A stretch of 64,000 nucleotides of DNA. Origin: Euzebya sp. (GTDB lineage: Bacteria > Actinomycetota > Nitriliruptoria > Euzebyales > Euzebyaceae). Below are positions 32,472 to 59,722 of this stretch, in pieces. A program made the translations under genes and the position numbers. The notes below the pieces were generated by a model. It saw nothing but the letters and a program-made list of their open reading frames with translations, was not told the origin of the DNA and ran no database searches. Numbering within the stretch: position 1 is the first letter of the stretch; every line of letters starts with the position of its first letter. The stretch is from contig NZ_CAXQBR010000067.1 of the NCBI RefSeq assembly GCF_964222135.1, positions 62,001 to 126,000 on the forward strand. The letters run 5' to 3'.

Positions 32472-32696
32472 GTGGAGCGGACGTTCACGATCCGGACCGG
32501 CCAGGACCTGGGCGCGGCGTTGGCGGAGATCCGTCGTGATGCCGGTCTCACCCAGCAGGAGTTCGCCGAGCGGGTCGGCGTGTCCCGCTCCTACCTGTCG
32601 AAGGTCGAGACGGGGAGGACCACCCGCCTCATCGAGCACCTGTTCACCGCGCTGCGGCGTGCGGGCGCCACGGTGACGGTCACCTGGACGTCGTGA
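32472..32696 (+). CDS. hipB: HipB-like antitoxin, XRE-family HTH protein
   Basis: Small DNA-binding antitoxin (74 aa). The helix-turn-helix reads IRRDAGLTQQEFAERVGVSRSYLSKVETGR (residues about 17-46), followed by a C-terminal beta strand GATVTVTW as in HipB. The GTG at 32472 is chosen over the upstream ATG at 32358 because it has a GAGGAGG box 6 bases before it and gives the normal HipB length. It overlaps the start of hipA by 4 bases (GTGA at 32693-32696). Two palindromes lie upstream. Confidence 0.8.
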   Translation: MERTFTIRTGQDLGAALAEIRRDAGLTQQEFAERVGVSRSYLSKVETGRTTRLIEHLFTALRRAGATVTVTWTS

Positions 32697-33992
32697 CCCC
32701 ACGGCCCGCCGCACTGGAGGTCGCCATCGACGGGCAGGTCGTCGCCGACCTCACCGAAGGTCGCGGGCCGCAGGTCAACCTCCGGTACCGCGCCGACACC
32801 GTGGCGGCCGACGGCAACCAACCGTGGCTGTCCTGCTCGCTTCCCGTCCGCAGCCGTCCGCACGATGCCCGGCTGTTCCTCGCCGGCCTGCTGCCCGAGG
32901 GCCGCCACCTGGAATCCGTCGCCGCCAGAGCCGGAGTGCTCACGACCGACGTGTTCGGCCTGCTGGCCCGCTTACGGGCGGGACGTCGCCGGCGCCCTGG
33001 TGATCGGTGACACCACAGCTGACCGCAACCCCCACACCGTCCCCTACGACGATGTGGCCCTGGCAGAGAGCGTCGGCCGCGTGGCAGAGGAGTCCTTCGA
33101 CCTCGCTGACGACTCCGAGCTGTCCCTGGCCGGGCTGCAGAACAAGCTGCTGCTGGTGGAGACCCCCGACGGGTGGGCGCGGCCGGCCGAGGGGTACGCC
33201 TCCACCCACACCCTCAAGGTCGAGGATCGTCGCTTCGACGGCCTGGCCGCAGCCGAGGCGGCATGCCTGTCCCTCGGCCGCGCCGTGGGGGTCACCACCG
33301 TCCACGCAGAGGCCACGACGATCGGCGGCATCCCCGTCGTCATCGTCGAGCGCTTCGACCGCGCCTTGGGCGAGGGCGGGGAGGTCCGGCGCATCCACCA
33401 GGAGGACGCCTGCCAGGCCCTCGGCGTCGATCCCGAACGCATGCACGTCGACGCGGGGGGCAGGCCCAGGCGGATGGGCAAGTACCAGGTCGGCGGCGGC
33501 CCGTCGTTCGCCGACATCGCGCAGCTGCTCGACCGCTTCGCCGCCGATGCGGTCGAGGAGCACTGTCGCCTGCTGGCGCTGGCCACGTTCACCGTCGCCA
33601 TCGGAAACGGCGACGCGCACGGCAAGAACGTCGGACTGCTGCACCCGACGCCGGACCGCATCGAGTTGGCACCGGCTTACGACACCGTCCCGACGGCGCT
33701 CTGGCCCACCCTCGCGGATCGAGCAGCGATGTTCGTCAACGGCCGATCCCTGCTGTCGGAGGTCACCGGAGAGGACCTGGTCATCGAGGGTGCGGTCAAG
33801 TGGGGCATCTTGCGCATCGACGAAGCCGAGGAGATCGTCGGCACGGCCCTCGATGCCCTGGAGGCCGCCGTGACCGACCCTGCTCGTGATCTCGGCAAGC
33901 ACCCGGTCATCGAGCGGCTCCGGGGCTACGTCAGGTCGCGTGTCGACCAACTGCGGTCGTCGATGTGGGGCGGACTGTCGCACCGGCCCTGA
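32693..33992 (+). pseudogene. hipA: HipA-like Ser/Thr kinase toxin, frameshifted
   Basis: Toxin kinase of the HipBA module, interrupted by a single-base frameshift. The frame from GTG 32693 gives the N-terminal domain (LEVAIDGQVVADLTEGRG; LFLAGLLPEGRHLESVA) up to VFGLLAR and then ends at 33010. The following frame gives GRDVAGALVIGD, SLAGLQNKLLL, the catalytic loop IGNGDAHGKNVGLL and LAPAYDTVPT, to 33992. Deleting one T of the TT at 32972-32973 restores FGLLARYGRDVAGAL, exactly the family consensus, and would give 432 aa, the normal HipA length. Everything else looks intact, so the lesion is recent, phase-variable, or a sequence error. Confidence 0.8.
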
Positions 33993-43755: not shown

Positions 43756-45318
43756 ATGCAAACGCGACGCACCCGTCTGATCATGCTGGCGACGTTGGCC
43801 GTGGCGATGCTCGGCATCACCGTGCCCGCTGGCAGCGCCGAACCGTCCACCGCCGAGGTCATGCTGGCCGCCGGTGCGGGGCAGGACTTCTCGCCAGCCG
43901 TCACCGCCGGCGGCTTCGCTGCCGAGAACTGCTGGGACGACCCCACCGACGACGTCATCAACCTCGAGGACGAGAACGCGTCCATCGACGAGGACCGCGG
44001 CGACATCGTGGAGCACTGCGCGAACTACGCCGGCGACAGCCTGATGCTGTCGGCTGAGGTCGCTGAGCCGACGGACCCCGAGACGGATGTCAACTGGGAG
44101 TCCTCGCAGCTCGGGTGGTTCATCGACGCGAACGGCGACGACAGCGGGGAGTTCTTCGCCAAGCTGTACACCGACGCGGACACCGGCGAGGTCGTCGCCG
44201 GGGTGGAGGACCGCCTGGAGGGCGAGCCCGCCGAGGACATCGAGTGCGACGTCGACTGGGACTACGCCGACGGCGTCCTGTCCGTGACGCTCGCCGCCGA
44301 CTGCATCGGCTCCGAGCAGTCCGTCGCGGTCAGCCCCGGGCTGATCTACGACCAGCGTGTCGAGGACCTCAACGGCGTCGCGACCTTCGACAGCGCCCCC
44401 AACGGCGGCGGCTTCGAAGGTGAGCTCGATGCCGGCGGCCTGCCCGAGGGCATCACCCGTCTGGGCGGGGACGAGCGCATCGAGACCTCGGTCCTGATCA
44501 GCCAGCAGGCCTACCCGAACGGGGCGGACGCCGTCGTCCTGGCCCGCCAGGACGTCTTCGCAGACGCGGTGACCGGCACCCCGCTGGCCATCGAGCTGGA
44601 CGCCCCGATCCTGCTGACGACCACCGACGCCCTGAGCCCGGCAGCGGACACCGAGATCGACCGGCTGCTCGACACCGGTGACCCCGTCTACCTGCTGGGC
44701 GGCACCGCGGCGATCTCCGAAGAGGTCGAGAGCGAGCTGACCACCCTGGGCTACGACGTCATCCGGTACGGCGGGTCGAACCGCTTCGAGACCGCGGTCG
44801 TCATCGCCGAGGAGGGGTTGAACAGCCCGACGGAAGTGCTGGCCGCTGACGGCGGCAGCTTCCAGGACGCCCTGGTTGCCGGCCCCGCGGCCGCGACGGT
44901 CGATGGCGCGGTCCTGCTGACCGACGGCGAGACCGTCCCGCCCGCGACCGCTGACTACCTGGCCACCGAGGGGGTCGACGTGACCGCCATCGGCGAGACG
45001 GCGGCCGCAGCCCTGCCGGAGGCGGACTCCGTCGCTGGGGCCGACGCCGTCAACACCTCGGTGCTGGTCGCAGAGACGTACTTCCCCGACGCCACCGCTG
45101 TCGGCCTCGCCCGCGTCGACGAGTTCGCCGACGCCCTGACCGGCGGCGCCCTCATCGGTCAGGTACCCGGCCCGGTGCTGTTCGTCGAGACCGACAGCCT
45201 GCCGATGGTGGTCGAGGAGTACCTGACCGACCAGGACATCACGTCCGTCGCGATCTTCGGTGGCACCACGGCGGTGTCCCAGGAGGTTGAGGACGCGATC
45301 GAGGACGCCATCAGCTAG
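43756..45318 (+). CDS. Secreted CWB2-repeat cell-surface protein
   Basis: Surface protein of 520 aa. The signal peptide (MQTRRTRLIMLATLAVAMLGITVPAGSA) precedes an acidic N-terminal module (about 30-215; ENCWDDPTDDVINL, WFIDANGDDSGEF, LAADCIGSEQSVAVS) that resembles the one in the 34060-36279 product. Three CWB2 repeats fill the rest (LLGGTAAISEEVESEL, IFGGTTAVSQEVEDAI). The protein is very acidic. ATG 43756 has a GGGGGAG box; the frame upstream to 43687 has no such site. It ends before a good terminator and the lower-GC polysaccharide island. Confidence 0.85.
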   Translation: MQTRRTRLIMLATLAVAMLGITVPAGSAEPSTAEVMLAAGAGQDFSPAVTAGGFAAENCWDDPTDDVINLEDENASIDEDRGDIVEHCANYAGDSLMLSAEVAEPTDPETDVNWESSQLGWFIDANGDDSGEFFAKLYTDADTGEVVAGVEDRLEGEPAEDIECDVDWDYADGVLSVTLAADCIGSEQSVAVSPGLIYDQRVEDLNGVATFDSAPNGGGFEGELDAGGLPEGITRLGGDERIETSVLISQQAYPNGADAVVLARQDVFADAVTGTPLAIELDAPILLTTTDALSPAADTEIDRLLDTGDPVYLLGGTAAISEEVESELTTLGYDVIRYGGSNRFETAVVIAEEGLNSPTEVLAADGGSFQDALVAGPAAATVDGAVLLTDGETVPPATADYLATEGVDVTAIGETAAAALPEADSVAGADAVNTSVLVAETYFPDATAVGLARVDEFADALTGGALIGQVPGPVLFVETDSLPMVVEEYLTDQDITSVAIFGGTTAVSQEVEDAIEDAIS

Positions 45319-45335
45319 CGCAAGGCGCGAGGCGG

Positions 45336-45363
45336 AGGGCGGCTCGTCAGGGCCGCCCTTTCC
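45336..45363 (+). terminator. Rho-independent-type terminator after CWB2 gene
   Basis: An 8-bp stem AGGGCGGC/GCCGCCCT with an 8-base loop, followed by TTTCCT, 18 bp after the CWB2 stop. It is the best terminator in the window and separates the surface block from the glycosyltransferase gene. Confidence 0.65.
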
Positions 45364-45390
45364 TCGGTCTGGAAGGGGGAACGCTCGCTC

Positions 45391-46608
45391 GTGAGAGCTC
45401 GCAGACTGCTCATTGTCAGTCCGACGTTCTGGCCCGAGCCGGTTGGCACACCCAAGTACGCCTTCGACGCTGCTCAGTGGTTTCGTGACAACGGCTGGCG
45501 AGTTGCGGTCGTCACCGCACAGCCCTTCTACCCGCAGTTCGAGCTATACGAGGGCTGGGGGCCGTCCCGCCGTAGGGACGAGGTGGCCGGGATCCAGATC
45601 CTCCGCATGCCAACGGTTGTCCCAAGAGGCGGGCAACCCGGCTGGCGTGCCGCGTCGGAGATCAACTTCGCGTTCCAGACCGCATGGCGCGGTCTTCAAC
45701 GCACAGTCCCTCGGCCGGATGCGATCCTGACCTTCTCACCCGGAACTCCTTTGGTCGTGCCAGCCGCCCGACTCTGGAACACTCAGGTAGCCACCACATG
45801 CATCGTCCATGACATCCAGTCGGGGCTTGCCAGCACCACCGGCATGGCACCGGAACCCGTGGCAAGGATCATGCAAGACCTTGAGCGCACGGCCCTATCG
45901 GCTGCGGATCGAATCTTGGTCCTATCCGAACGCATGAAGGAGGAGCTCAAGCGGATCGGCGTTGTCCAACCTATCGAAGTTGTACCCATCTGGGCAGACA
46001 TACCAATAGCTACTGACGTTTCGGCTCCGACCGATCCGCATGGCATGTTCACGGTTGGCTACAGCGGGAATTTCGGCCGCAAGCAGGGCATCCCACTACT
46101 TATCGACGTAGCGACCGAACTGGCTGAACGGAACGCGCCGGTCACCATGGCCCTCCGTGGACACGGAGCCCTTCGCGAAGCTGCCGAACGAACTGTGGCC
46201 GCCCGTGGTCTCACCAATATCAAGCTTGAGGAGTTCGTGCCCGCCGATGAGCTCGTGGAGTCCCTTCGAACGGTGGACCTCCATCTAGTTCCACAAGTAT
46301 CCGGTACGGGCACATTCGCAATGCCGTCGAAGGTGGTCAATATTCTCGCGTCCGGACGCCCGATGTTGGCCATCTGCGACGAAGGGGATCCGCTCCAGAC
46401 CTTGATCAAAGACGGCATTGGCTTCTGGGCGCCTATCCATCCTACTGCAGTTGCCAAGCAGATCCTAGACCTGTCCCGCAATCGCGGTTTGGCAGCGCGA
46501 GTCGCCGGCCATGGCTTGGATTACGCGAGAGCACATCACGACCGCACAGCGCTTCTATCCATTGTGGAGCAGAGTCTGCTACGGGCGACACCTCACCCAA
46601 TTCCGTAG
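45391..46608 (+). CDS. Glycosyltransferase family 4 (WcaI-like)
   Basis: GT-B glycosyltransferase (405 aa). The N-terminal domain opens LLIVSPTFWPEPVGTPKYAFDAAQWF, typical of the WcaI/colanic-acid type. The C-terminal nucleotide-sugar domain has FTVGYSGNFGRKQGIPLLIDVA and TGTFAMPSKVVNILASGRPML. The usual E-x7-E pair is not clear. The start is GTG 45391 with a GGAAGGGGGA box. It is the first gene of the lower-GC island and the only one on the plus strand there. Sugar donor and acceptor are unknown; it probably builds the exopolysaccharide repeat unit. Confidence 0.85.
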   Translation: MRARRLLIVSPTFWPEPVGTPKYAFDAAQWFRDNGWRVAVVTAQPFYPQFELYEGWGPSRRRDEVAGIQILRMPTVVPRGGQPGWRAASEINFAFQTAWRGLQRTVPRPDAILTFSPGTPLVVPAARLWNTQVATTCIVHDIQSGLASTTGMAPEPVARIMQDLERTALSAADRILVLSERMKEELKRIGVVQPIEVVPIWADIPIATDVSAPTDPHGMFTVGYSGNFGRKQGIPLLIDVATELAERNAPVTMALRGHGALREAAERTVAARGLTNIKLEEFVPADELVESLRTVDLHLVPQVSGTGTFAMPSKVVNILASGRPMLAICDEGDPLQTLIKDGIGFWAPIHPTAVAKQILDLSRNRGLAARVAGHGLDYARAHHDRTALLSIVEQSLLRATPHPIP

Positions 46609-46781
46609 CTCGCTTCGCTGAACCAATCCCACACGTCCGAGGTAGCCGTCGCCGGTGTTGCCGGCCCCGACGCCGTTCCCCGAGGTGAACGGCCAGCGCC
46701 CAATCGGTCAGGCACGCCTAGAGTACTGCAACGTCAGCCGCAAGCTATTGGCACAACCGTCTAGCCACGGTCCCGGCCCAC

Positions 46782-46796
46782 AAGACGCGACGTCTT
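46782..46796. terminator. Short symmetrical hairpin between convergent genes
   Basis: AAGACG-CGA-CGTCTT in the 296-bp gap between convergent genes (46609-46904). The gap holds no open frame with family resemblance that I can recognise. The hairpin could act as a bidirectional terminator, but the 3-base loop and 6-bp stem are weak evidence. Confidence 0.3.
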
Positions 46797-46904
46797 CGCG
46801 GGACAAGCGGGCGTAGGGGACGCGAACAGCCACATCCGTTCGTGCCGAGGACCCGGCCAACGTGCCGACATCAACGGCCGCTGGGCAGTCCCCGTGAGCA
46901 ACGA

Positions 46905-48116
46905 CTAGCCCTGTTTGACCATGTGTCTCCCTCGGATTCGTTGCAGGGGCCCCAGACGCGACCCGCGGCCCAATGCCAACACAGTCACGTACATTCCAAA
47001 CGGATACGGGTTGAGGTTAATGAATCGATCGTTAAGGAAGACCAGAGGCAGGCATGCGAGTAAACACAGACTGGCCTTGCGGTCCCGATACCATATATTT
47101 GCAAATGCTCTTACCAGCGGTACCCAAATGAGCAGAGAAAGTGCACCGTGCCGCGCAAGGCCATACAGCACGGCATTGTGTACGCCGGACACATCCCCTT
47201 CCGCTCGAAAGTCGATCCCTGACCCGATGAGCGGGGTCTCCAGAAATGCCTCCCAGGCCGATCCCCACGGTTCTACCCTTCCAGTGAATCCACTGCCGAT
47301 CCCTCGGTTCTCGTCCGACACTCTCAAGACGTCCTCACGCACGAACCGTGCCCCAGTTGATCCATGAGTCCAAAGGGACATCACCATTAGCATCAGTAGG
47401 CTCACGGCGGCGAACCGCGCGCCACGGGACCAGCGCAAGCGCCTGAACTCGTAAACGGCCCACACCAGGACGAGCAAGAGTATGCACGCCAACGCAGCCC
47501 TAGCCTGAAGAAGAAGCACACTGATCGTAAGCGGTATCACCACAACTGTGAACGAACGCGGCCTCAGTGAAAGGCTAGCTAGCAGCACCGCTGCCGACGC
47601 AATCTCCCCACCGAGGTTTGGATGAGTGTTCCCAACATAGAGAACGCGTCCAAAATGATCATCAACGCCCCCTGAAACGGCGAGGAAGACGTGTACGACC
47701 GCAACGGCATACGGAATTGAGACAAACCCGACCGCATACTGCGTAAAGTCGTCTCGGGCAACCAGCAATAGAGTAAGGCATACCGACGCAGCAACCGCGC
47801 CGTATACAAGGTAGCCCCGGAAGTCAAAGCCTCCCGTCCCCACGTTCATGATAAACGAGACTGCAGCCAGCACACCGATACCGGTCAAGAAAAGACCTTG
47901 ATCACGCCCAATGGCAAATCTTGTCGGCCGCTCGCGTAGAAGGAGGCCCGCCTTCAATATTAGCCCGAGTACTTGTAGAGGCAGCGCAGTGCCAAGGAGT
48001 AGATATCCGGCTGCCCCCACGCTATCCGCCAAACCTACTATGCGAGGAAGCAGCACCCGTTCGCCACCGAAGAGTGGCAGCCTTCGAACTCCTTCACCGC
48101 GCTGTCCGCCATTCAA
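46905..48116 (-). CDS. O-antigen ligase/polymerase-like membrane protein (Wzy type)
   Basis: Polytopic protein of about 403 aa with ten or more hydrophobic segments (for example GAAGYLLLGTALPLQVLGLIL; AALACILLLVLVWAV). Between late segments it has the Wzy_C-type external loop with RVEPWGSAWEAFLETPLIGSGIDF and VHNAVLYGLARHGAL. Such proteins polymerise or ligate lipid-linked repeat units outside the membrane. The open frame begins with TTG 48116; a GTG further in (before LLPRIVG) is an alternative. GC content is lower than in the flanking blocks. It is the polymerase candidate for the flippase at 52.4 kb. Confidence 0.75.
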   Translation of the reverse strand: MNGGQRGEGVRRLPLFGGERVLLPRIVGLADSVGAAGYLLLGTALPLQVLGLILKAGLLLRERPTRFAIGRDQGLFLTGIGVLAAVSFIMNVGTGGFDFRGYLVYGAVAASVCLTLLLVARDDFTQYAVGFVSIPYAVAVVHVFLAVSGGVDDHFGRVLYVGNTHPNLGGEIASAAVLLASLSLRPRSFTVVVIPLTISVLLLQARAALACILLLVLVWAVYEFRRLRWSRGARFAAVSLLMLMVMSLWTHGSTGARFVREDVLRVSDENRGIGSGFTGRVEPWGSAWEAFLETPLIGSGIDFRAEGDVSGVHNAVLYGLARHGALSLLIWVPLVRAFANIWYRDRKASLCLLACLPLVFLNDRFINLNPYPFGMYVTVLALGRGSRLGPLQRIRGRHMVKQG

Positions 48117-48236
48117 AGGTCAGATCCCCGATCTAAGCGCGTACCCGAACCAGACGAGCAACTGGCACGATTCCTAGGCTCGAACACACGCGCATACGCA
48201 CGCTGTTGACGCCGCAGTTCACAGTCTAACCGATGG

Positions 48237-49340
48237 CTACGCGATTGCTGATTCAAAGTCTGCCAAGTACATTCCTGCGACCTTCTCAACGGTGAAGCCC
48301 TCCGCCGTCCTTCGAGCCGCCATTCCCATCTGTTCGATCCTACCCTCTTGGTCTAGTGCCGTGCTCAGTGCCTGCGCCAAGCCGTGCAAGCCACTCGCAC
48401 GGTCCCAGACCATGCCGTTCCGCCCCGGAAGAACGAAGTCTAGGAAGCACCTCAGGTCGCTAACCAATGCGGGTACGCCCAGTGACATCGCTTCGAGTAC
48501 CGCAAGCCCGAACGTCTCGCCGCGCTCAGCCAATGACGGATAAGCAAATATTCGCACTCCCGATATGTAACGGTTGAGCTCCTCGCGGTCCACGATGAGA
48601 CCACGGAAGTCGACGGACCCACGCATACGCACCGCCACACGCTTCAAGTCCTCGAAGTAGGCACGTCCGCCGCCGCCGGCCGCAGTGTCTGTCGGTCCGG
48701 CAAGACGGACATTGATAGGTCTACCCAAGATCCCTTCGGCCGTGACAACAGCACGCAACAACTCCAAGACGCCCTTCTCAGGATGAATTCGCCCAGCGAA
48801 GCAAATATCGTCGACGGGATTTTCTGATGTCGACCGAAGTTCCGGCAGGCGCACTGGATTGGGAATCACCACAACTTTTGTGGACGGTACTCCCTGCTGA
48901 ACCAGAGCCTCCGCTACGGGTGAGGAAACAGCCTGTAGTCTGTCTGCGCTACGATACAAGCGATGCTGCTGCTTCGGGAACCTCGCCACATGGACGTATA
49001 GTACGGCGCGAGTGTTTCGTAGGATGACCGGGGACCAAAAACTGTGGGTGACGATGACATCGGCGTCGGATATCGCGGCCGCCACCCTAGTTGAGTATGT
49101 CAGGTCCCGGATGAGACGAACCAAGCCATTGTGTGTTTGGGAGAACCCCCCGACACGTACGTGCTCTACTCCGCCCACAACCGCATGATCCGGCAGGCCG
49201 GGGTATCTCTTGGATACGTGCCAAACGTCATGACCGTTAGCGGCGAATTCATTCGCTAGGTCAAACCAGACCTTTTCCACGGCTCCACCGAGTAGAGGCG
49301 GGATGGGCAAGAACGGACCTTGCACAATACCAATCCTCAT
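48237..49340 (-). CDS. Glycosyltransferase family 4
   Basis: GT-B glycosyltransferase (367 aa). The acceptor domain begins MRIGIVQGPFLPIPPLLGGAVEKVWFDLA. The donor domain has ICFAGRIHPEKGVLELLRA and the E-x7-E motif in ERGETFGLAVLEAMSLGVPAL. All domains are present. The start overlaps the stop of the FkbM methyltransferase gene by 4 bases (ATGA), and the same coupling continues upstream through two more glycosyltransferases, so it is the last gene of a tight minus-strand operon that begins at about 54.5 kb. Confidence 0.88.
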   Translation of the reverse strand: MRIGIVQGPFLPIPPLLGGAVEKVWFDLANEFAANGHDVWHVSKRYPGLPDHAVVGGVEHVRVGGFSQTHNGLVRLIRDLTYSTRVAAAISDADVIVTHSFWSPVILRNTRAVLYVHVARFPKQQHRLYRSADRLQAVSSPVAEALVQQGVPSTKVVVIPNPVRLPELRSTSENPVDDICFAGRIHPEKGVLELLRAVVTAEGILGRPINVRLAGPTDTAAGGGGRAYFEDLKRVAVRMRGSVDFRGLIVDREELNRYISGVRIFAYPSLAERGETFGLAVLEAMSLGVPALVSDLRCFLDFVLPGRNGMVWDRASGLHGLAQALSTALDQEGRIEQMGMAARRTAEGFTVEKVAGMYLADFESAIA

Positions 49341-50086
49341 GCGCCCAGCGGATCCTCATCAGTGCTTGGTAGCCGCTCAAAGAGGACGTCGAGTTGGATC
49401 AGTTGGCCATCCCTGCGCCTCATCTCTTGGAAAATATCTACAACACGGAAGTCGCGGTCATCCATAAATGCTATGACCTCTGCCAACAGCGGCGCGCCCT
49501 CATTATATTGAATCAAGGACACTTCAAGCATTGCAAAGCGGGCACTGGACAGGACGGCCTCTGCACCACGCAGGACCTCGAGTTCGTAGCCTTGCACATC
49601 AACCTTGATGAAGTCAGGCGCCCCCCAGTGCGAAGGAAGATCGGCGACAATCGAATCCAAGGTCCTAACCTTGGCAGTCGTCACAGTGCGCGACACATCG
49701 GACAGCTCGCCGAGCACCGAACTCCCCGTCTCCATCTCATAGAAGTTGACCGACTGCCCATCCTTCGGCCCAGCAACGGCGATCGCCAACTGAACATCGC
49801 CGTGGCCGCTCTCCACCAAAGATCTCAATGCTCCAGCCTTCGACTCCTGTGCCTCAACCATAAGGACGCGGGCCCCAGGAAAGACCAGACGCACCAGACT
49901 TGTCCATTCGCCCTCGAAAGCGCCAACATCGATAATCGTGCGCAAACAACACGCCCGATTGCGCAACATGACCAAGGAGGCAGCATGGCTGGGAAAGAGA
50001 AATCGGCTTAGAACCTTCCAGGCGATCCACCGTGCGAACGGAGGAATCTGAATGGACAGCCGAGCCAAGAGACCGCGCATGCTCAC
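49337..50086 (-). CDS. FkbM family methyltransferase
   Basis: SAM-dependent methyltransferase (249 aa). The SAM-binding motif is TIIDVGAFEGEWTSL (residues about 49-63). The FkbM signature LDSIVADL, then PDFIKVDVQGYELEVLRGA, follows, with YNEGAPLLAEVIAFM and FRVVDIFQEMRRRDGQLIQLDVLF at the end. In polysaccharide clusters these enzymes usually O-methylate a sugar. The start is GTG 50086, overlapping the upstream glycosyltransferase stop; ATG 50080 is an alternative. Confidence 0.88.
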   Translation of the reverse strand: MSMRGLLARLSIQIPPFARWIAWKVLSRFLFPSHAASLVMLRNRACCLRTIIDVGAFEGEWTSLVRLVFPGARVLMVEAQESKAGALRSLVESGHGDVQLAIAVAGPKDGQSVNFYEMETGSSVLGELSDVSRTVTTAKVRTLDSIVADLPSHWGAPDFIKVDVQGYELEVLRGAEAVLSSARFAMLEVSLIQYNEGAPLLAEVIAFMDDRDFRVVDIFQEMRRRDGQLIQLDVLFERLPSTDEDPLGA

Positions 50087-51219
50087 CGCTCACCCTCCGG
50101 CTGAATGATGTCTCTACTGACGATTCCTGAGTACCAAGCCTCAAGGTCGCTGCCGGCCTTGGCCCACGTCAACTGACGCGCTGCGGCCACGCCATTTCGC
50201 CTCATGTCGCTCAGCATGCCAGGTCGTTCCAAAAGGTTGAGTAGCGCCTTTCCAAGGGCTTCGGCACTTCCTTCTGTCACGACCCCTGACTGTGTGCCCG
50301 ATAGAATCGATGCGGCACCAACCTCCGGAGTGACGATGGGCACAGCCCCATAAGCCATAGCCTCGACAACCGCAATGCCAAAGCTCTCGTCCAAGGAAGG
50401 CAACACAAAGACGCTCGCTCTCCGTAACAATTGTTGCTTTGCCTCCCCACGTACAAGACCAATCAGCTTGACATCGTCCTTCAGCCCACGATCATTAATC
50501 CTCTTCTGTAGAAGTGAGTGGCGAATATCCTCCTCAGGTCCGGCGATGATCGCCTGGGCTACTAGTCCGGCCTGTTTGGTCCACGCCAGCGCATCTACGA
50601 CGAGCCATGGTTGCTTCTTCGTTGCAAGGCGGCCGAGAAACAGAACGAGGTTCTTCCGGGGCTTATCGGCACTTACTTCATCAGTTGCTGTCTCCACTCC
50701 GGGGGGTATGATCGACCAGTTCCGAAAATGGCGTACTCTCAAAGCGTCGTCGCGCTCATGTTCGGACATGAAGTGCACGCCGCTGGCACCGTCAATGACT
50801 CGATTCTCTATGAGAGCCTCATACATGCGCTTCTTCACAGCTCGCTGTTCGTAATGGTACTTATCAAAGGCTCCGTGAGGCGACACAACGTACGGCGTCG
50901 AAGAGCGGCGCAAGTAGGCTGCGAGGCTCTGCGGCAGGTACAGCGCATGCGCGTGGACAAGATCCGCCCGCTCGGCCTCCCTGAGCGACTCCCTCCACCA
51001 TGAGTAGGATATCGGTGCAGGACCGGCATACTGGGCCGCATAGGTAGAGAGTCGGACACCATCCGGATCATTCGCCTCAATGGTCTCGCCACGTCGCCGC
51101 ATAGCCAGTACATGCACTTCATGCCCTCGAAGAGCTACCGACTCGGCCATCTTTTGGACGGCGTAACTCGGGCCGCCTGCTTCGGGCCGGAGCGAATCGA
51201 TCAGATGGAGCACTCTCAT
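50083..51219 (-). CDS. Glycosyltransferase family 4
   Basis: GT-B glycosyltransferase (378 aa). It begins MRVLHLIDSLRPEAGGPSYAVQKMAES, with the glycine-rich donor-side turn. SPHGAFDKYHYEQRAVKKRMYE is the segment seen in many capsule transferases. The donor domain has LVLFLGRLATKKQPWLVVDAL and the E-x7-E motif DESFGIAVVEAMAYGAVPIVT. It overlaps both neighbours by 4 bases. Sugar specificity cannot be read. Confidence 0.88.
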   Translation of the reverse strand: MRVLHLIDSLRPEAGGPSYAVQKMAESVALRGHEVHVLAMRRRGETIEANDPDGVRLSTYAAQYAGPAPISYSWWRESLREAERADLVHAHALYLPQSLAAYLRRSSTPYVVSPHGAFDKYHYEQRAVKKRMYEALIENRVIDGASGVHFMSEHERDDALRVRHFRNWSIIPPGVETATDEVSADKPRKNLVLFLGRLATKKQPWLVVDALAWTKQAGLVAQAIIAGPEEDIRHSLLQKRINDRGLKDDVKLIGLVRGEAKQQLLRRASVFVLPSLDESFGIAVVEAMAYGAVPIVTPEVGAASILSGTQSGVVTEGSAEALGKALLNLLERPGMLSDMRRNGVAAARQLTWAKAGSDLEAWYSGIVSRDIIQPEGER

Positions 51220-52391
51220 GCCATACTCCCCTCCATCACCAATAGTTCCCCGACGACTGAAGAGAGAGCCTCGGCAATAGCAGACGCCGAGTACGAGTCC
51301 ACAACCATCTTGGTGCGATCTCTATAGTCCGACTTGGGTCCCTGACGCCTCATTGAGTCCATAGCCTGTACGAGCGACTCGACACTATCTGAGGCAAACA
51401 CGTACCCTGTCTTGCCCATCACAAGGTCCGGCGCGCAGCCAACGCGGTCGCTAACGATTACGGGAAGACCGGAGGCGAGTGCCTCGTTGACTACAAGGCC
51501 CCACGTCTCTTGATACCTCGAGGGCAGCACCAGACAGTCGCACCTGCCAAGCAAGGCTGCCAATTGCCGTTGAGCAAGGAAGTCGAAGAAGTCTACGTCT
51601 AAATCCTCTTGTTCGGCATATCGTTGGAGGTCCCCCTTCATGGCGCCGGAACCGACGATGGCGAGCATGGCTGTATCGCGATCTGGCATTGCCCGGAACG
51701 CTCGCAGCAAAAGGTCGGGGGCCTTCTTATCGATGAGCTTGCCAACGAAGACAAAGGTGAACTTGCGTCTAGCAACCATGTCCAGTTCTTCGTCAGGCTC
51801 TGGGTCGGTGTCGAACGATGCATTGTCCACCCCATGGGGAACGTAGCGGAGGCGGTGCGGTTTCACTCCATGGTTCAGAAAGAAGGCCCGGTTGTGCCAG
51901 CCTATGTATCCAATCCGCGTTGCCAGACTCAGAATTGGCGGATAGAGGACCTTACGCAATCCACTCCTTAGGCGACTCCGCTCGCCAAGGTCATACGACA
52001 CGGATCTGAGCAGAGTAGGTATGCCAGTCAATCGGCAGGTCAGTAGTGCCGCCACTTCGGGCAATCCCGCGAAGCCGTGCACGTAAACGGCCTTCGGTCT
52101 CAAGCGGACGATGGCCCGTATGACGGCAAGCGCTCGGCGCAATTGCTCTGCGCTGAGTTGGCTCTCGCTCTTCTCATCGCGCGTGGTGGGAAGGGCCAAG
52201 CTGTTCCCAAACCCTATTTTGCGGATTCCGAAATCAACCTTCTTGCCGAATTCCCAATCGTACCCCGATGCCCCTCGCGCTTGCCTCAGAAAGAGCACAT
52301 GTATTTCCCGCGTTTCTGCCAGGCGCTCAAACACTGGCATTTGGTAGTGAATGGGATATGGGGTGATAATTAGAAGTTCCAGCGGCATCAT
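51216..52391 (-). CDS. Glycosyltransferase family 4
   Basis: GT-B glycosyltransferase (391 aa). The start is ATG 52391, which overlaps the flippase stop by 4 bases and begins MMPLELLIITPYPIHYQMPVFERL, normal for this family. Donor-domain motifs are FVGKLIDKKAPDLLLRAF and the E-x7-E in QETWGLVVNEALASGLPVIVSD. The open frame that continues upstream to 52724 is a shadow within the flippase gene. It is the fifth gene from the island's end in a four-gene coupled series. Confidence 0.87.
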   Translation of the reverse strand: MMPLELLIITPYPIHYQMPVFERLAETREIHVLFLRQARGASGYDWEFGKKVDFGIRKIGFGNSLALPTTRDEKSESQLSAEQLRRALAVIRAIVRLRPKAVYVHGFAGLPEVAALLTCRLTGIPTLLRSVSYDLGERSRLRSGLRKVLYPPILSLATRIGYIGWHNRAFFLNHGVKPHRLRYVPHGVDNASFDTDPEPDEELDMVARRKFTFVFVGKLIDKKAPDLLLRAFRAMPDRDTAMLAIVGSGAMKGDLQRYAEQEDLDVDFFDFLAQRQLAALLGRCDCLVLPSRYQETWGLVVNEALASGLPVIVSDRVGCAPDLVMGKTGYVFASDSVESLVQAMDSMRRQGPKSDYRDRTKMVVDSYSASAIAEALSSVVGELLVMEGSMA

Positions 52392-53620
52392 GCTTGGCCA
52401 CCTTTCTCCGAACGGGCGGAAGACCTCGCGCTGTATAGCCACAGGAGGGTCGTGGCGGCTGATGCCAACGCTAGGAGCAACGCAGTCGCCTCGCCGGTTC
52501 CCAAGACGAGACCCAGCATGAGCGCCAGTCCGTTCAGGGCGGCAGACAGCCACCGGACGGCAGCGATTCGTCGCGCGAGCTGACCGGCGCGAAGGTACAG
52601 CAGGCCGGCCGCACCAAGTGCATTGCTGATGGTGATTGCTGCGACGGCTGGCAAGAATGCGCGTGCGGCACTCCAGCTTGCCCCAAGCAAGTCGGGTGCA
52701 AGGGATAGCGGGTCCACTATCCAAAAGGCGCTCGCTAGAACCGCCGCTGACGTCATCAGGACCGAGATGGTAATTAGAACATTACGGATGTCCTGGCCCA
52801 GCGCGAAACGCTTTGACGCCCAAGGCACGAAGACCGCACCGGCTGTGGCATAGATGATAGATATAGGACCTAGAAGTAGCTGAGATCCCCTGAAGCCAGC
52901 CACAGTGGCCGCACTAAATCCTACTCCTAGAACCAGGGCGACACCGGGCCCCGATACGATGGAGCCCATGAACTCTATTGTGTAGGGCAGCGCAAGATGG
53001 CGGGTATCAGTCAACCACTGCACAAGCTCGCTTGGCCTTCCGAGCACTGGTCGAACCCATATCAAGGATGCAGCGAAGGCAACCGACGCAGCCAGTCCCC
53101 AAGCGACGAGAGGCTTTGACGGTCCCACGCCGTCAGCTATGAGGAGGATGCCCAGTCCGAGCCCTAGGAGCCAGGTTCCGTCGAGGGCTGCAACTAGGCG
53201 CGGGTTGCCGCTCCCGAATGCGAACTGCCGGACTAGCTCAAGCCCTAGAAGGCCTGGTATCCAAGGGGTGAGTTGCCATGTAGCCTCTGCCAAGGGGCTA
53301 GGTGCTATCTGGCTGAATACTGCGCAGAGTAGCCCCCCAGTCACTCCGACGAGAATAGACAAGAGTCCCGCGACCGGAGCGGCTTTCGAACCCCTAGAAC
53401 CATCGGTCAGTAGCGCTTCGCCTAGAGCAGCTCGGACTAGCCCCTGTGCAATTGTGTAAACAGCCAGCGAGAGACCAAAAAGTCCGAACTCAGTAGGGGA
53501 GAGGACGTTGGCCGCGTAGACACCTGCTAAGAAGTTGGTCCCGCTCGACAGCAGTTGACTAGCGCCGGCCCAACCGACACGCCTGACTCCAGTCCGGCGC
53601 TTCTCTAGATTCGGGAGCAT
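52388..53620 (-). CDS. Polysaccharide flippase (Wzx-like, MATE/MVF fold)
   Basis: Integral membrane protein of 410 aa with about 12 hydrophobic segments and few charged loops. The N-terminal part reads GVRRVGWAGASQLLSSGTNFLAGVYAANVLSPTEFGLFGLSLAVYT, the usual opening of oligosaccharide flippases (polysaccharide biosynthesis protein family). It would move the lipid-linked repeat unit across the membrane for the Wzy-type polymerase encoded at 46905-48116. The gene is 11 bp downstream of the family 2 glycosyltransferase and overlaps the next one. Confidence 0.82.
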   Translation of the reverse strand: MLPNLEKRRTGVRRVGWAGASQLLSSGTNFLAGVYAANVLSPTEFGLFGLSLAVYTIAQGLVRAALGEALLTDGSRGSKAAPVAGLLSILVGVTGGLLCAVFSQIAPSPLAEATWQLTPWIPGLLGLELVRQFAFGSGNPRLVAALDGTWLLGLGLGILLIADGVGPSKPLVAWGLAASVAFAASLIWVRPVLGRPSELVQWLTDTRHLALPYTIEFMGSIVSGPGVALVLGVGFSAATVAGFRGSQLLLGPISIIYATAGAVFVPWASKRFALGQDIRNVLITISVLMTSAAVLASAFWIVDPLSLAPDLLGASWSAARAFLPAVAAITISNALGAAGLLYLRAGQLARRIAAVRWLSAALNGLALMLGLVLGTGEATALLLALASAATTLLWLYSARSSARSEKGGQA

Positions 53621-53631
53621 GGGTCTTCTTA

Positions 53632-54522
53632 CTACATGGAATGAGCACTGTCAGACTGGGATTCAAGAGGCGCGGCAATTCCAGTCCTTTGCGGAGACTG
53701 ATCGCGGCGGGGCGCTGCCCAATCCGGGAAGGCGACTGCTAGATCGATCATATAGTCATACAGTGCAATGATCGTAGCGTAGTGGAATCCTACCCTTCCC
53801 TCCCGCCATCCTTGTTTGATGATTAGGAGCCAGAACCAACGAATTACGGGCCTGCAGCGAAGCCGAAACCAGATGTTGCGCTTCAGCCACTGTCTGCGGC
53901 CAAACCAACTCGTTAGGGGGAGTCCGACCCGTGACGTATTTGTCGCCAACTGCGTGGCCTCTAACACTGCATAGCGAGCGTGCTTCTCGATGTATTCGGT
54001 CATTGTGTCGCTGGGCGCGTGCATGAGGTCCCCGGTCAGCATAACGGGCGGCCCATCGGTCAACAGATGCTCGTGAACTCTGCGATCGTCGAAGCGTCCG
54101 TGGTGCGCTCGTACCAGACGAATTTGTACATCGGGGTACCACGTCCCGTACTTCATTACTCGCCCAAGAAACACGAGCCTGCGAGGCATGCCGCATGCAG
54201 GAGCATCAACGGGTCGACCGCCATCCACGATCGAGCGGATTTCATCTTGAAGGTGGCTGCTTAGCCATTCGTCGGCATCAAGGAAGAGGATCCAGTCGGC
54301 CTCGTCAACCACGACGTCTAGTGCCCAATTTTTTTGCGCCGCGTATCCCTCCCAAGGGTGGATTAGGACTTGAGCCCCCTTGGATCGTGCGATTTCAACT
54401 GTGGCGTCCGTGCTACCGGAATCAACAACAGTGACACTACCTAGTGCCGCGACCGAGTCGAGGCACCTTCCAATCACATCAGCCTCATTGAGGGTTGTCA
54501 CGATCGTCATTAGTCGGGGCAA
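53632..54522 (-). CDS. Glycosyltransferase family 2 (WaaE/KdtX-like)
   Basis: GT-A glycosyltransferase (296 aa). It shows TIVTTLNEADVIGRCLDSV, VTVVDSGSTDATVEIA, LIHPWEGYAAQKNWALD and the metal-binding DxD in LFLDADEWLS, the set typical of the WaaE/KdtX group. The C-terminal part ends in hydrophobic and basic residues near the membrane. The start is TTG 54522, preceded by a GGAG box; the ATG at 54510 has no such box. It is the first gene of the minus-strand polysaccharide operon. The 264 bp upstream (54523-54786) hold no gene I recognise and should contain the operon's promoter. Confidence 0.86.
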   Translation of the reverse strand: MPRLMTIVTTLNEADVIGRCLDSVAALGSVTVVDSGSTDATVEIARSKGAQVLIHPWEGYAAQKNWALDVVVDEADWILFLDADEWLSSHLQDEIRSIVDGGRPVDAPACGMPRRLVFLGRVMKYGTWYPDVQIRLVRAHHGRFDDRRVHEHLLTDGPPVMLTGDLMHAPSDTMTEYIEKHARYAVLEATQLATNTSRVGLPLTSWFGRRQWLKRNIWFRLRCRPVIRWFWLLIIKQGWREGRVGFHYATIIALYDYMIDLAVAFPDWAAPRRDQSPQRTGIAAPLESQSDSAHSM

Positions 54523-54786
54523 TTTGGGGCTCCGTTCTTAGCTTAAGCGCTTTCGACCGAGCTGGTTCTTGGGTACTAACTCAGGTGGTGCTTGGCAACG
54601 AAGGAATGCCGGGGCCGATATGGGACGCCTAGTCGATCTGCGCCTCATGCTCTGGGCTGCGGATGAACTGATGGGGCGTCCTCACCATTTTCTGGCTACC
54701 ATCCTTGGTTGCTCCTTGCTCGCTCTGCAACGTGGCCTCGAGGCTGGGCCTCGCAACGTCTGGACTTCTGGACGCGCATCACTCGC

Positions 54787-55842
54787 TCAGTCGCCCGGGC
54801 GGCCGGTCTGCCACTCGATGGTGCCGAGGCCGGCGTCGACCAGCGCCTTCTCCCGCTTGGCCAGCTCCATGTCCGCGGCCACCATCATCTCGACCAGCTC
54901 GTCGAAGCTCGTCCGCGGCGTCCACCCCAGCACCGCACGAGCCTTCGACGCGTCCCCCAGCAGCTGGTCGACCTCCGCCGGCCGCAGGTACCGCGCATCG
55001 GTCCCCACGTACCGCTCCCAGTCCAGGTCGAGCAGCGCGAACGTCGCCTCGGCGAACTCCCGCACGCTGTGCATCTCCCCCGTCGCCACCACGTAGTCAC
55101 CCGGTTCGTCCTGCTGGACCATCAACCACATCGCCTCGACGTAGTCCCCCGCGAACCCCCAGTCCCGCCTGGCGTCCAAGTTCCCCAGGTACACCTTCTC
55201 CTGGAGCCCCAGCTTGATCCGCGTCGCCGCCCGCGTGATCTTCCGCGTCACGAACGTCTCACCCCGCCGCGGCGACTCGTGGTTGAACAAGATCCCGTTC
55301 GACGCATGCATCCCGTAGGACTCGCGGTGGTTCACCGACTGCCAGAACCCGTACACCTTCGCACACCCGTACGGCGACCGCGGGTGGAACGGCGTCGCCT
55401 CGGTCTGGGGCACCTCGACCACCTTGCCGTACATCTCCGAGCTCGACGCCTGGTAGTACCGCGGGCACTCCTCCCCCAGCTGCCGACACGCCTCCAACAG
55501 CTTCAACGTCCCCAGCGCATCGGCATCCACGGTGTACACCGGGTTCTCGAAGGACACCCCCACATGGGACTGCGCCCCCAGGTTGTAGACCTCGTGCGGC
55601 CGCACCTCCCACAACAACCGCGACAACGAGTTCGCGTCCGTCAGATCCCCGTAGTGCAGGAACATCCGGGCATCCTCCAGGTGCGGATCCAGGTACAGGT
55701 GATCGATCCGCTCGGTCCCGAACGTCGACCCCCGCCGCACCAACCCGTGCACCTCATAGCCCTTCTCCAACAAGAGCTCGGTCAGGTACGACCCGTCCTG
55801 CCCCGTGATCCCCGTGATGAACGCGCGCTTCCGGTCAGCCAC
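54787..55842 (-). CDS. gmd: GDP-mannose 4,6-dehydratase
   Basis: Converts GDP-mannose to GDP-4-keto-6-deoxymannose, the precursor of fucose, rhamnose and perosamine units (351 aa). The NADP motif is [10 protein letters not shown] (residues 10-19), the active site SSSEMYG (Ser/Glu) and YGCAK (Tyr-x3-Lys), followed by the Gmd hallmark [14 protein letters not shown] and [19 protein letters not shown]. The sequence is closely typical of Gmd. The start is GTG 55842. Unlike the island genes beside it, its GC and codon use are high, as in the chromosome. No GDP-fucose synthase (fcl) or rmd partner is in the window. Confidence 0.95.
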
Positions 55843-55962: not shown

Positions 55963-56343
55963 TCACGATCCCGATGGCGGGATCTTGCAGGCGGCCACCA
56001 GGTCCAGGACGCCGTCCAGTCGGCGCCGGCCCTCGTCGTCCTCGAGGTAGGCGTGCCCCGCCTCGCCCTCGGGCAGCACCACGCGACGGGGCGCGCCGAC
56101 CGCGAGGTCGTCCACGCTGATCGTCAAGTCGTACGCGGCGTCCGCCGACTCCTCCCCCGGCGCGGCGCACGTCACTTCCACCTCGGCCGCTGCGAGCGCG
56201 CGGCTGAGCGCGTCTGCGAACAGGCCGGGTGGCAGGCAGATCAGCACTCGGGGGGCGTGGGCGGTCCTCACCGGGTCTGACTCAAGCGCCTCATCCGCCC
56301 GCGGCGCATCCTCAACATTGGGTGATCGTTCGGAAGCGGTCAT
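55963..56343 (-). CDS. Hypothetical protein, possibly a degenerate receiver domain
   Basis: A 126-aa protein of unknown function. After about 30 polar residues it reads PRVLICLPPGLFADALSRALAAAEVEV, which resembles the first strand and helix of a response-regulator receiver, then DLTISVDDLAVGAPRRVVLPEGEAGHAYLED. The acidic pair and phospho-Asp of a working receiver are not evident. It is divergently arranged with the sensor kinase gene at 56401, which supports a signalling role only by position. The start is ATG 56343 or GTG 56346; a GAGG box lies just upstream. Confidence 0.55.
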   Translation of the reverse strand: MTASERSPNVEDAPRADEALESDPVRTAHAPRVLICLPPGLFADALSRALAAAEVEVTCAAPGEESADAAYDLTISVDDLAVGAPRRVVLPEGEAGHAYLEDDEGRRRLDGVLDLVAACKIPPSGS

Positions 56344-56400
56344 CACCTATCCTCAGGTCCCCCCCAGGGAAGCCGTGGTCCCCCGGGCCGCATTCGAGCC

Positions 56401-57868
56401 TTGAGCCTCTCACGCCCACACCCGCGTCGCCAGAGCTATCGCGGACCTGACCGGCGTGGCGTCGTCGCCACACCGCACGCCACCGCGCCCGGGACCGATC
56501 GGCCGGCGAGCGTCATGGCGCTGGCCGGGCTGACCGCGACCGCGCTGGCGGCGGTGGTGCTCGCCGACCTGGCCGACCTCGACGTGCAGCGCTGGTCCAC
56601 GGGCGCGGCCGTCGCCGCCGGCCTGGCCGGCGCGGTCGCGGTGCTCGCGCTGCTGCGCTGGCGGACCCTCGGCGACGCATCATCGGCACTGGTCGGCATC
56701 GCCTTCGGCGGCCTGGTCCTCGCCGTCGTCCCGCCCGGCGCGGCAGGCGGATCCGGGGCCACCGAGGTCGGGCTGGACGTGACGCGCCTCGCGGTGCTCG
56801 TCGCCGTCATCGTCCTGTGCGCCGTCGCCGGCCGGACCGCGCAGGTCGACACGGGCCTGCGGATCGGCTGGTGGCTCGGGGCGACGGCGCTCGGGGTGGC
56901 GGTCCTGGCGCTCGCCGGGTCGCTGGTGATCGGCGACGACCCCCTGTCCACGACCGCCGTAGCGGTGACCCACGCCGTCGTCGCCGTCGGCCTGGTCGCC
57001 ACGGCCGTCCACGTCCGGTCGCGGCTGATCCGGCGGACGGCCAGTGCCGGCTGGCTGGCGCCCACCCTGGTCGGCCTGGCGGTCGCCGAGGCTTTCCGGG
57101 TCATCGCGGTCCTGACCGCCCCGGTCTGGCTGCTCGGCGCCCAGGTGGCCGTCATCGGCGCCCTGCTGTTCGCGGTCCTCGGCGGGGCGCGGGACCTCGA
57201 CGCGGCCTACCGCGAGCAGCGGGCCCGGCTGTTCGGCAGCGTCGTGGACCGCGGGGTGGACCGCGCCCGCCGAGCCGCCGACGACCTGCTCGCGGCCGGC
57301 CGGCGCCACGACGCCAAGAGCAGCATCACCGCGATCGACGGCGCCACCACCGTCCTCGGCCGGTACGCCCACGACCTGGACCCCGCCCAGCGGACCCGGC
57401 TCCACGACGCCGTCGCCGACCAGATCGGCCGGCTGCAGCGCCTGCTCGACGTCACCGACGACGCCGGCGCGGACCTGCCCCTCGCCGCGACCCTCGACGG
57501 CCTGCTCCGCGAGCCGCGGCTCCGCGGCGTCACCGTCGCAGTGGACATCCCGCCCGACCTGGTCGTCCACGGCCGGATCGCCGACACCGTGGCGGTCGTC
57601 CACACCCTCGTCGACCGCTGCGCCACCCCCGACGGCACAGGCGAGCCCGGGGAGGTCACCGCGACCGCCCGGGTCGTGGACGGCCACGTGCACCTGCGCA
57701 TCGAGGCGGCGCGTGCCCCCTCCTCCCCCGGCGGTGCGCCCGACCACGGCCTCGACGTCGTCATCGGCACCCAGCTGATGGCCGGCCAGGGCGGACGGCT
57801 CGTCGTGCTCGACCCGGGCGCGCTACGAGGTGGTCATGCCCGCCGTCCGCCGGGACGGGACGGCGTGA
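56401..57868 (+). pseudogene. Membrane sensor histidine kinase, frameshifted near its C-terminus
   Basis: A sensor kinase with about eight N-terminal membrane segments (residues about 38-265). The dimerisation helix GRRHDAKSSITAIDGATTVLGRY carries the probable phospho-His (near 303), and a short ATPase-like domain follows. The usual N-box Asn is not seen (TLVDRCA), so catalysis may be weak. Near 57818-57823 the frame shifts: reading one frame over gives YEVVMPAVRRDGTA and a stop at 57866-57868 that overlaps the regulator's GTG (GTGA), the arrangement expected of an intact pair. As written, the kinase reads through into the regulator. The start is TTG 56401 or ATG 56515. Confidence 0.7.
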
Positions 57869-58391
57869 GCACCCCTCCCCCTCCCCGCCTGCTCATCGTC
57901 GAGGACCACGACCTGCTGGCCCAGAGCGTCGCGCTCGCGGTGACCGCGGAGGGGATGATCGGGGCCGAGTGCTCGACGCAGCGCGCACCTGGCAGCCGGA
58001 CCTGGTGCTGCTCGACATGGACCTCGGCTCGGGCGTCAGCCGGGGGGCGGTGTTCGTGCCGGCGATCCGCGAGCTCGGCGCCGCCGTGCTGGTCGTCACC
58101 GGCATCGACGACGTCGACGTGATCGCCGAGGCCCTCGAGTCGGGCGCGGTCGGGTTCGTCCGCAAGCACCAGCCCTTCGACGACCTGCTCGGCGCGATCC
58201 GCCGCGCCACGGACGGCGAGGACGTCAACCACCCCGACGTGCGCGCGGCCGTGCTGGGCGACGCCCGGCGGGTCCGGTCGGCGCAGGCCGCGGTGCTCGC
58301 GGACCTCCGCCGGCTGACCGCGCACGAGCAGGCGGTGCTGGCCGCGCTGATGGGGGATCACGGTCCACAACCAGGTCCGGACGATTCCTGA
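57865..58391 (+). pseudogene. LuxR-type response regulator remnant with internal deletions
   Basis: Starts at GTG 57865 with RLLIVEDHDLLAQSVALAVTAEGM, a proper receiver N-terminus with the acidic pair ED. After about 57968 the sequence continues only in another frame: VLDAARTWQPDLVLLDMDLG (phospho-Asp), VLVVTGIDDVD and GFVRKHQPFDDLL (conserved Lys). About eight residues between AEGM and VLDAA are missing, so the frame change is a deletion of roughly 20-30 bases. The output domain begins LTAHEQAVLAALM and is cut short; VHNQVRTI, a LuxR recognition-helix-like piece, appears in a different frame at about 58368-58391. At least two lesions make this non-functional as written. Confidence 0.65.
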
Positions 58392-58918
58392 TGGGAGAGT
58401 CACTTCCAGCGATGTTGCGGATGGCACGTCACCCGTTGTTATGCACCCTGAGCCGGCGTCACCTTTGAAAGGACGCCAGCAGCGCGGGCCTGACGGACAG
58501 GGTGCGCGTCGTGGCGAGCAGAGGGGTCCGGACGGGTGCCCTCGCAGCCACCGTCGGCGTCATGGTCGCCCTGCTGACGAGAGTCCCTCGCCGGGACGTC
58601 CGCCTACTCCAGGCGCCGACCACGAGCACTATGGACCTGCGCGTACGCACCTGACCGCGTCGACCCGCGTACCAGCGACCACCCTGGCGGACCTTGGTCC
58701 AGCTGCGGCGGCCCTTCGCCCAGTCGGCGGCAACGGTCTCTAGGCTCCTGGCGCCGTGGACCGCGGAGCAGGCGGGGTTGGAGACCACCGCTGTCGCGGT
58801 CGCCTCCACGATCGCGCGGGCCATCGAGTTCAAGCGAACGTCCCCTTGCGGGCCGTCTCGGCCTCCCGGACGATGTTCGGCGCGCCACCGCAGTGCCGAC
58901 CGGCCGGTCGTCAGACCA
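58392..58918. other. 527-bp stretch without a convincing gene
   Basis: This gap follows the damaged response regulator. Its first 50 bases could be the frameshifted tail of that gene. A 50-codon open frame at 58502-58654 on the plus strand (GTG start) reads like a signal peptide (GALAATVGVMVALL) and then stops, as if a secreted-protein gene had been cut. A 124-codon minus-strand frame (58459-58833) and a 100-codon plus-strand frame have no recognisable features. I find no RNA gene, repeat or insertion-sequence end here. Confidence 0.4.
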
Positions 58919-59722
58919 TCACGTCTGGCGCCGGAACTCCTCCACCGCCCGGGCCGACACCGCGTCGATCAGCCGGCCGCCGCCCAGGTCGGCCAGCACC
59001 ACGGCGTGGGAGGCCTCCAGGTGCTTGCGGGCCGTCCGCTCCGCCGCCGCCCCCTCCCCCGCCAGGATCTCCCGCGCGATGCGGCGGTGGGTGCGGAAGA
59101 CCGCGACCTGGCTGTCGGTGTCGGGGTAGCGGCCTTCCAGCGACGCCTGGTCCGCCCAGGTCTCCTGCTGGGCTGTCCACACCGACACCAGGCTCCGGAC
59201 CACCAGCCTGATCGCGGGGTTCAGGACATGATCGACCACGATGCCGTGGAACCCCCGGGCCAGGCTGGTGAACTCCACCCCGTCGCCGATCGCCTCCTCC
59301 GTCGCCGTCAGGTTCGCCTCCAACGACTCGCCCAGCGCCTCCCGGTCCGGCCGCTCCGCGCACAGCGCGGCGCACGGTGGTTCGAGCATCCGCAGCGCGT
59401 CGGACAGGTCGTCCAGCGTCGTCCGCTCCCCCTGCAGCGTCACCGCCGTCATGTAGGCCGCCGAGGCGCCAGAGGGCCGGTGGATCTCCGCCCCGCCGAC
59501 CTTGCCGCGCCGGACCGTGACCAGCCCCTCGGCCTCGAGGATCCGCAGCGCCTCCCGCAGCGACGGGCCCGACACGCCGAACATGTCCATCAGGTCGTCC
59601 TGCTTGGGCAGCGAGTCGCCGTCGAAGCCGCCGGTCAGGATCTGCTCGCGCAAATCCGCGGCGACGATCTCGGCCAACCTGATCCCCCTGGCGCGCGACG
59701 GGGGACGTCCGACTCCGCTCAC
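58919..59722 (-). CDS. GntR-family (FadR/FCD) transcriptional regulator
   Basis: Regulator of 267 aa, paralogous to the 15184-15984 product. The winged HTH has LPKQDDLMDMFGVSGPSLREALRILEAEGLVTVRRG (residues about 35-70). The FCD domain keeps the probable metal-ligand His (ARGFHGIVV, THRRIAREI, RKHLEASH). It is the last gene of a minus-strand run containing an SDR, a CoA ligase, another SDR and a third Liv system, in the same order as its paralogue's run; these are its likely targets. The start is GTG 59722, directly beside the SDR stop. Confidence 0.9.
   Translation of the reverse strand: MSGVGRPPSRARGIRLAEIVAADLREQILTGGFDGDSLPKQDDLMDMFGVSGPSLREALRILEAEGLVTVRRGKVGGAEIHRPSGASAAYMTAVTLQGERTTLDDLSDALRMLEPPCAALCAERPDREALGESLEANLTATEEAIGDGVEFTSLARGFHGIVVDHVLNPAIRLVVRSLVSVWTAQQETWADQASLEGRYPDTDSQVAVFRTHRRIAREILAGEGAAAERTARKHLEASHAVVLADLGGGRLIDAVSARAVEEFRRQT

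Follow-up and report, generated by a model that had tools for sequence, protein, structure and literature searches.

Frame architecture of the pair

The forward strand of the window (the whole stretch of 64,000 nucleotides that was analysed, bases 62001–126000 of the 150-kb contig C67 of a 5.06-Mb draft assembly in 111 contigs, 97% complete) carries a sensor kinase and an adjoining response regulator, both on the same strand and both interrupted by changes of frame. The kinase (56401–57817, frame 1; its TTG start is the choice of the ORF tool) comprises a membrane sensor region, a DHp region and a degenerate ATPase region. At lesion 1 (57818–57868) its C-terminal end passes into frame 2, where the native terminus ARYEVVMPAVRRDGTA is read from 57818 to a stop at 57866–57868, and the GTG start of the regulator at 57865 overlaps this stop as GTGA. 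The N-terminal receiver piece of the regulator (57865–57966) is in frame 1; it ends at lesion 2 (57957–57971, located by the codon-model scan and by tblastn), a frame change with some 8–9 residues lost, and the C-terminal part of the receiver, the linker and the start of the HTH continue in the other frame (57969–58352; PF00072 at E 2.4e-8, and tblastn). Lesion 3 follows, with about 15 residues missing, and then an HTH remnant in frame 1, GITVHNQVRTI (58354–58386), after which a stretch that the codon model reads as non-coding in all six frames (58387–58933, assigned to neither strand) replaces the 3' end of the gene. The frame changes, at about 57818 in the kinase end, 57960 in the receiver and 58352 in the LuxR HTH, are confined to the last 0.7 kb of the pair, and the 1.3 kb upstream is free of them. 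Frame 1 stays open from 56401 to 58122 (573 codons) and spans kinase and regulator, which bears out the fusion at 57818–57823 described in the initial annotation; the GTGA overlap that it had seen in the alternative frame is likewise there.

Fifteen regulators from 14 relative genomes served as tblastn queries against 57600–59000; they were picked for a full-length single open frame, so that their intactness is a matter of selection. Excluded were the regulator of locus L041 (one in-frame stop) and loci with no regulator match, with a match cut at the locus end or with a copy of a regulator already used. Each of the 15 aligns to the window in two separate frames, the first part of the receiver lying in one frame that ends at 57951–57993 and the remainder in a second that ends at 58349–58388. 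Nine alignment columns are absent from the window regulator at lesion 2 and 15 at lesion 3, and the final 29 columns are empty beyond ITVHNQVRTI (to about 58386), in agreement with the earlier description of a receiver broken near 57968 with about eight residues lost and of a LuxR HTH truncated near 58350. The PF00072 match in a single frame covers positions 38–110 only, the receiver being incomplete in any one frame, and its Asp and Lys are retained. The LuxR/GerE HTH is reduced to its start and the 11-residue remnant; tblastn found no complete HTH in any frame of 57600–59000, and PF00196 was matched in both of the relatives' regulators tested. As in a pseudogene, the pair is homologous to intact genes and its full product is not encodable. 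At L041:6569–7213, in an Acidimicrobiia bacterium MAG, the regulator beside the kinase has its in-frame stop between receiver and HTH and, being otherwise whole, appears to be another broken or misassembled member.

Outside the lesions the sequence is well kept, as had been noted before: six pieces of the pair (two of them, of 34 and 78 codons, shorter than the reference chunks) have codon scores between the 32nd and 90th percentile of a reference of 874 chunks from the own genome, each 125 codons long, and their third-position GC is 0.94–0.99, compared with a GC of 0.71 in 163 short intergenic stretches. The codon model is negative in all six frames over 58351–58933. The frames were therefore kept until recently, with non-coding sequence replacing the end of the regulator, and the frame lesions look young, normal codon usage being a sign of recency and not proof of decay. 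Four ORFs tested after 58386 gave no Pfam match, and no Rfam family was found in the window at gathering level. A repeated element after 58386 was considered and rejected, the own genome containing, besides the stretch itself, two weak matches of 28 and 33 bases (among the best 40 of 200 candidates).

The ATP-binding region of the kinase

A set of 17 relatives supplied the reference, and a column counted as conserved if at least 90% of them agreed in it. Of such columns the window kinase keeps 9 of 11 in the membrane region, 14 of 22 in the DHp region and 10 of 26 in the ATPase region, where the 16 losses include one column with an X that the analyst placed at lesion 1; treated in the same way by leave-one-out, the 17 relatives keep 9–11 of 11–13, 20–22 of 22–24 and 24–26 of 26–29, respectively. 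Four more distant controls (L016, L018, L019 and L020) keep 24, 23, 25 and 15 of the 26 ATPase columns and 21, 18, 17 and 13 of the 22 DHp columns. The DHp loss of the window kinase thus lies within the range of the controls and is not distinctive, whereas its ATPase loss lies outside it. The control that keeps 25 ATPase columns, L019, is matched to the window kinase in distance (median identity to the set 0.277, against 0.274), and L020, at a median identity of 0.248, has the N-box Asn and the G1 and G2 glycines despite its low ATPase count.

Of the ATP-binding motifs of the window kinase, the N-box lacks its N and A, G1 its D and two G residues, and G2 two glycines, and the F-box is gone together with the residues around it. 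The F-box and its surroundings fall in a 17-column in-frame gap of the alignment (57715–57732, forward strand), and the flanking G1 and G2 are substituted. The conserved phospho-acceptor histidine (H303, codon at 57307–57309, forward strand) is kept, aligned with the invariant His; of the features of a histidine kinase, the H-box His is present and the ATP-binding boxes are not. No Pfam family was matched by the window kinase at E≤1, and HATPase_c was matched by the kinases of all four relatives tested (E 4e-18 to 6.5e-21). Among the 21 aligned kinases of relatives, none lacks the whole ATPase core.

Two relatives, L042 (Nitriliruptorales bacterium Dino_bin30) and L040 (Nitriliruptorales bacterium Ww637), illustrate the ordinary state of the pair. 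They share with the window the YRGxDRR N-terminus of the kinase, the membrane sensor region, an H-box with its His kept, a regulator that is encoded on the strand of the kinase and has a receiver and a LuxR HTH, and a small antisense ORF close by; unlike the window, they still have the ATP-binding boxes (N, G1, F, G2) and a regulator in one frame. In a five-sequence alignment the window kinase is 28–31% identical to its relatives.

Distribution and gene neighbourhood

The kinase was found in at least 22 of the 61 genomes searched, its own included, with the top matches 32–35% identical, and a search with the kinase alignment gave eight distant loci, all of them in MAGs (labelled Nitriliruptorales, 2; Nitriliruptoria, 2; Euzebyaceae, 2; Acidimicrobiia, 1; Actinomycetota, 1). 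No match to it was found in any of the three same-genus genomes at E≤0.001 (best 26 of 33, 26 and 39 candidates), and with all candidates scored there was still no kinase in any of the three at E≤1e-15; among the matches listed for the 61 genomes at E≤0.001 there is no closer orthologue by which the decay could be dated. Euzebya-related MAGs, including Dino_bin24 and Dino_bin30, are described in PMC8067395, a study to which nothing ties the window, and the openings of the abstracts surveyed in a literature search contain nothing on this pair.

In 7 of the 22 kinase genomes (G005, G009, G010, G016, G030, G032 and G034) no more than about 10 kb separates the kinase from a TadE pilus gene, and in L040 the regulator is followed by TadE, Tad and RcpC genes; the neighbours tested in L045 are instead thiolase, LmeA-like and flotillin genes. 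A TadE gene is present in 28 of the 61 genomes; among the 22 that have the kinase the number is 13, against about 10 expected by chance, so that linkage, and not co-occurrence, speaks for a link to the pilus. The sole TadE match of the own genome is on another contig (C37), and the window pair adjoins genes for a GDP-mannose dehydratase and a glycosyltransferase; the pair may have become dispensable because it was separated from TadE.

Beside the kinase lies a small, divergently transcribed ORF of 127 aa (55963–56346, reverse strand) with weak similarity to the antisense ORF of some relatives. Such small ORFs, whose product belongs to no Pfam family, accompany kinase and regulator at L042:5748–6068, L040:6570–6899 and L039:4787–5134, and that of the window is 30–32% identical to them in alignment, with E values of 2e-5 and 0.099 in single comparisons. 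It has no Pfam match; its structure model (mean pLDDT 73) has no PDB match at E≤0.001 and matches receiver domains only partially, over about 50 columns (E 0.11–0.29).

The GDP-mannose 4,6-dehydratase gene (54787–55842, reverse strand) has a second copy, 94% identical, elsewhere in its genome on contig C108, where the surroundings look by eye like sugar-nucleotide and glycosyltransferase genes. The glycosyltransferase/polysaccharide region of the window (45311–54789) is of atypical composition and is read as non-coding by the own-genome codon model; it was perhaps acquired horizontally.

Probable pseudogenisation and competing readings

The pair is most probably an ordinary pseudogenised two-component system, a reading to which we give a probability of roughly 0.8. 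Its ATPase motifs have disappeared through many separate substitutions together with the in-frame gap of 17 columns, which assembly error leaves unexplained, and this favours decay. The ancestor would have been a membrane histidine kinase with an adjacent LuxR/NarL-type regulator, joined by the GTGA overlap. The ATP-binding core of the kinase would have gone first, through substitutions in the N-box, G1 and G2 and the disappearance of the F-box; with no phosphotransfer left, the regulator would have come under relaxed selection. Small deletions would then have interrupted the kinase end, the receiver and the HTH, while the regulator would have lost its C-terminus at a junction near 58386. We infer this order of events, and likewise that the lesions are real in the organism and that no working product is left. 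The pair shares with two-component pseudogenes in general its frame lesions, its truncation, the missing catalytic motifs and the failure to find the gene in sister species; it would differ from them in that the catalytic loss of the kinase apparently precedes the frame lesions. The pair, otherwise ordinary, may thus be an example from a little-studied actinobacterial class, probably Nitriliruptoria, of how a regulatory pair decays, with kinase catalysis lost first and the frames of the regulator later. Against decay we counted the clustering of the lesions in the last 0.7 kb, which is equally expected from a local assembly fault, the reduced counts of L020 in both the ATPase and the DHp region, and the failure of the frame-switch detector, described below, on three of the four known switches of the window.

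A local assembly fault, in which the regulator would be intact in the organism, the errors would lie in a GC-rich stretch and only the ATPase loss of the kinase would be real, is unlikely. It agrees with three frame changes and a truncation packed into 0.6 kb, with the undamaged codon usage of the pieces and with a draft genome of 111 contigs. The initial annotation had left the choice between real decay and an assembly fault open; the ATPase substitutions now favour decay, and the frame lesions taken by themselves would be indistinguishable, by sequence alone, from such a fault. However, the loss of the ATP-binding motifs through substitutions does not fit it, and the stretch after 58386 is non-coding, which is more than a shifted frame. 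There are no exact direct repeats of at least 11 bases within 57600–58600, so that simple repeat collapse is unlikely, and losses of some 25 and 45 bases are not known as typical consensus errors, which we also counted against a fault. A repeat-driven cause was rejected more generally, the four inverted 11-base pairs in 57600–58600 being ordinary (as many occur in 30.5% of 442 own-genome 1-kb windows).

Nor are frame switches common in the sampled assembly, another point against a fault: a scan by codon model, covering the window together with 20 own-genome stretches (464 kb in all), flagged five intragenic switches, one of them at 57969, at a simulated sensitivity of about 60% (90 of 150 one-base mid-gene deletions flagged, with some frame switch seen in 147 of the 150). 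The detector flagged one of the four known window switches and missed those at 57818, at 58352 and in hipA, the codon-model rule being prone to overlook short tails and stretches whose composition is atypical. Should the five flags be real, switches would occur roughly once per 50–60 kb of judgeable genes, and three switches in 0.6 kb therefore point to a local event, either a single decaying locus or a single faulty stretch of the assembly.

It is distinctly unlikely that the kinase was for a period under selection as an ATP-free pseudokinase and may still act, perhaps together with the small divergent protein, only the regulator being dead, as might be read from an ATPase core that is gone beside a membrane sensor region and a codon usage that are kept. 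Very improbable, too, is a functional remodelling into a working pseudokinase (a sensor or scaffold without ATP) with a fused kinase–receiver fragment as its product: the long open frame with normal codon usage and the retained phospho-acceptor His and receiver Asp and Lys would suit it, but the fusion frame follows the receiver for only 35 codons and then continues out of frame to 58122, no frame of 57600–59000 holds a complete HTH, and a kinase without its whole ATPase core has no counterpart among the 21 aligned relatives. Automatic annotation could call the 573-codon frame a kinase–receiver fusion, which would be wrong. Programmed frameshifting to join the frames, for which the overlap of open frames near 57818 might speak, is hardly conceivable and was rejected, since it would take three shifts, residues are missing at two of these, and the C-terminus is absent.

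The further frameshift reported by the initial annotation in hipA is visible by eye. In this hipA homologue (32693–33992) the frame changes at about 32970, between open frames at 32693–33010 and 32865–33992, and HipA_C is matched at 33120–33848 without a stop; by eye, a small HTH-like ORF precedes the gene. A second hipA-like gene of the same genome (G000:C26:82765–83464) also lies in two frames (HipA_C positions 1–135 and 138–212). Elsewhere in this genome, on G000:C10, two flagged switches (L051:3242 and L051:5910) lie within 2.7 kb, and that stretch is possibly another decayed locus.
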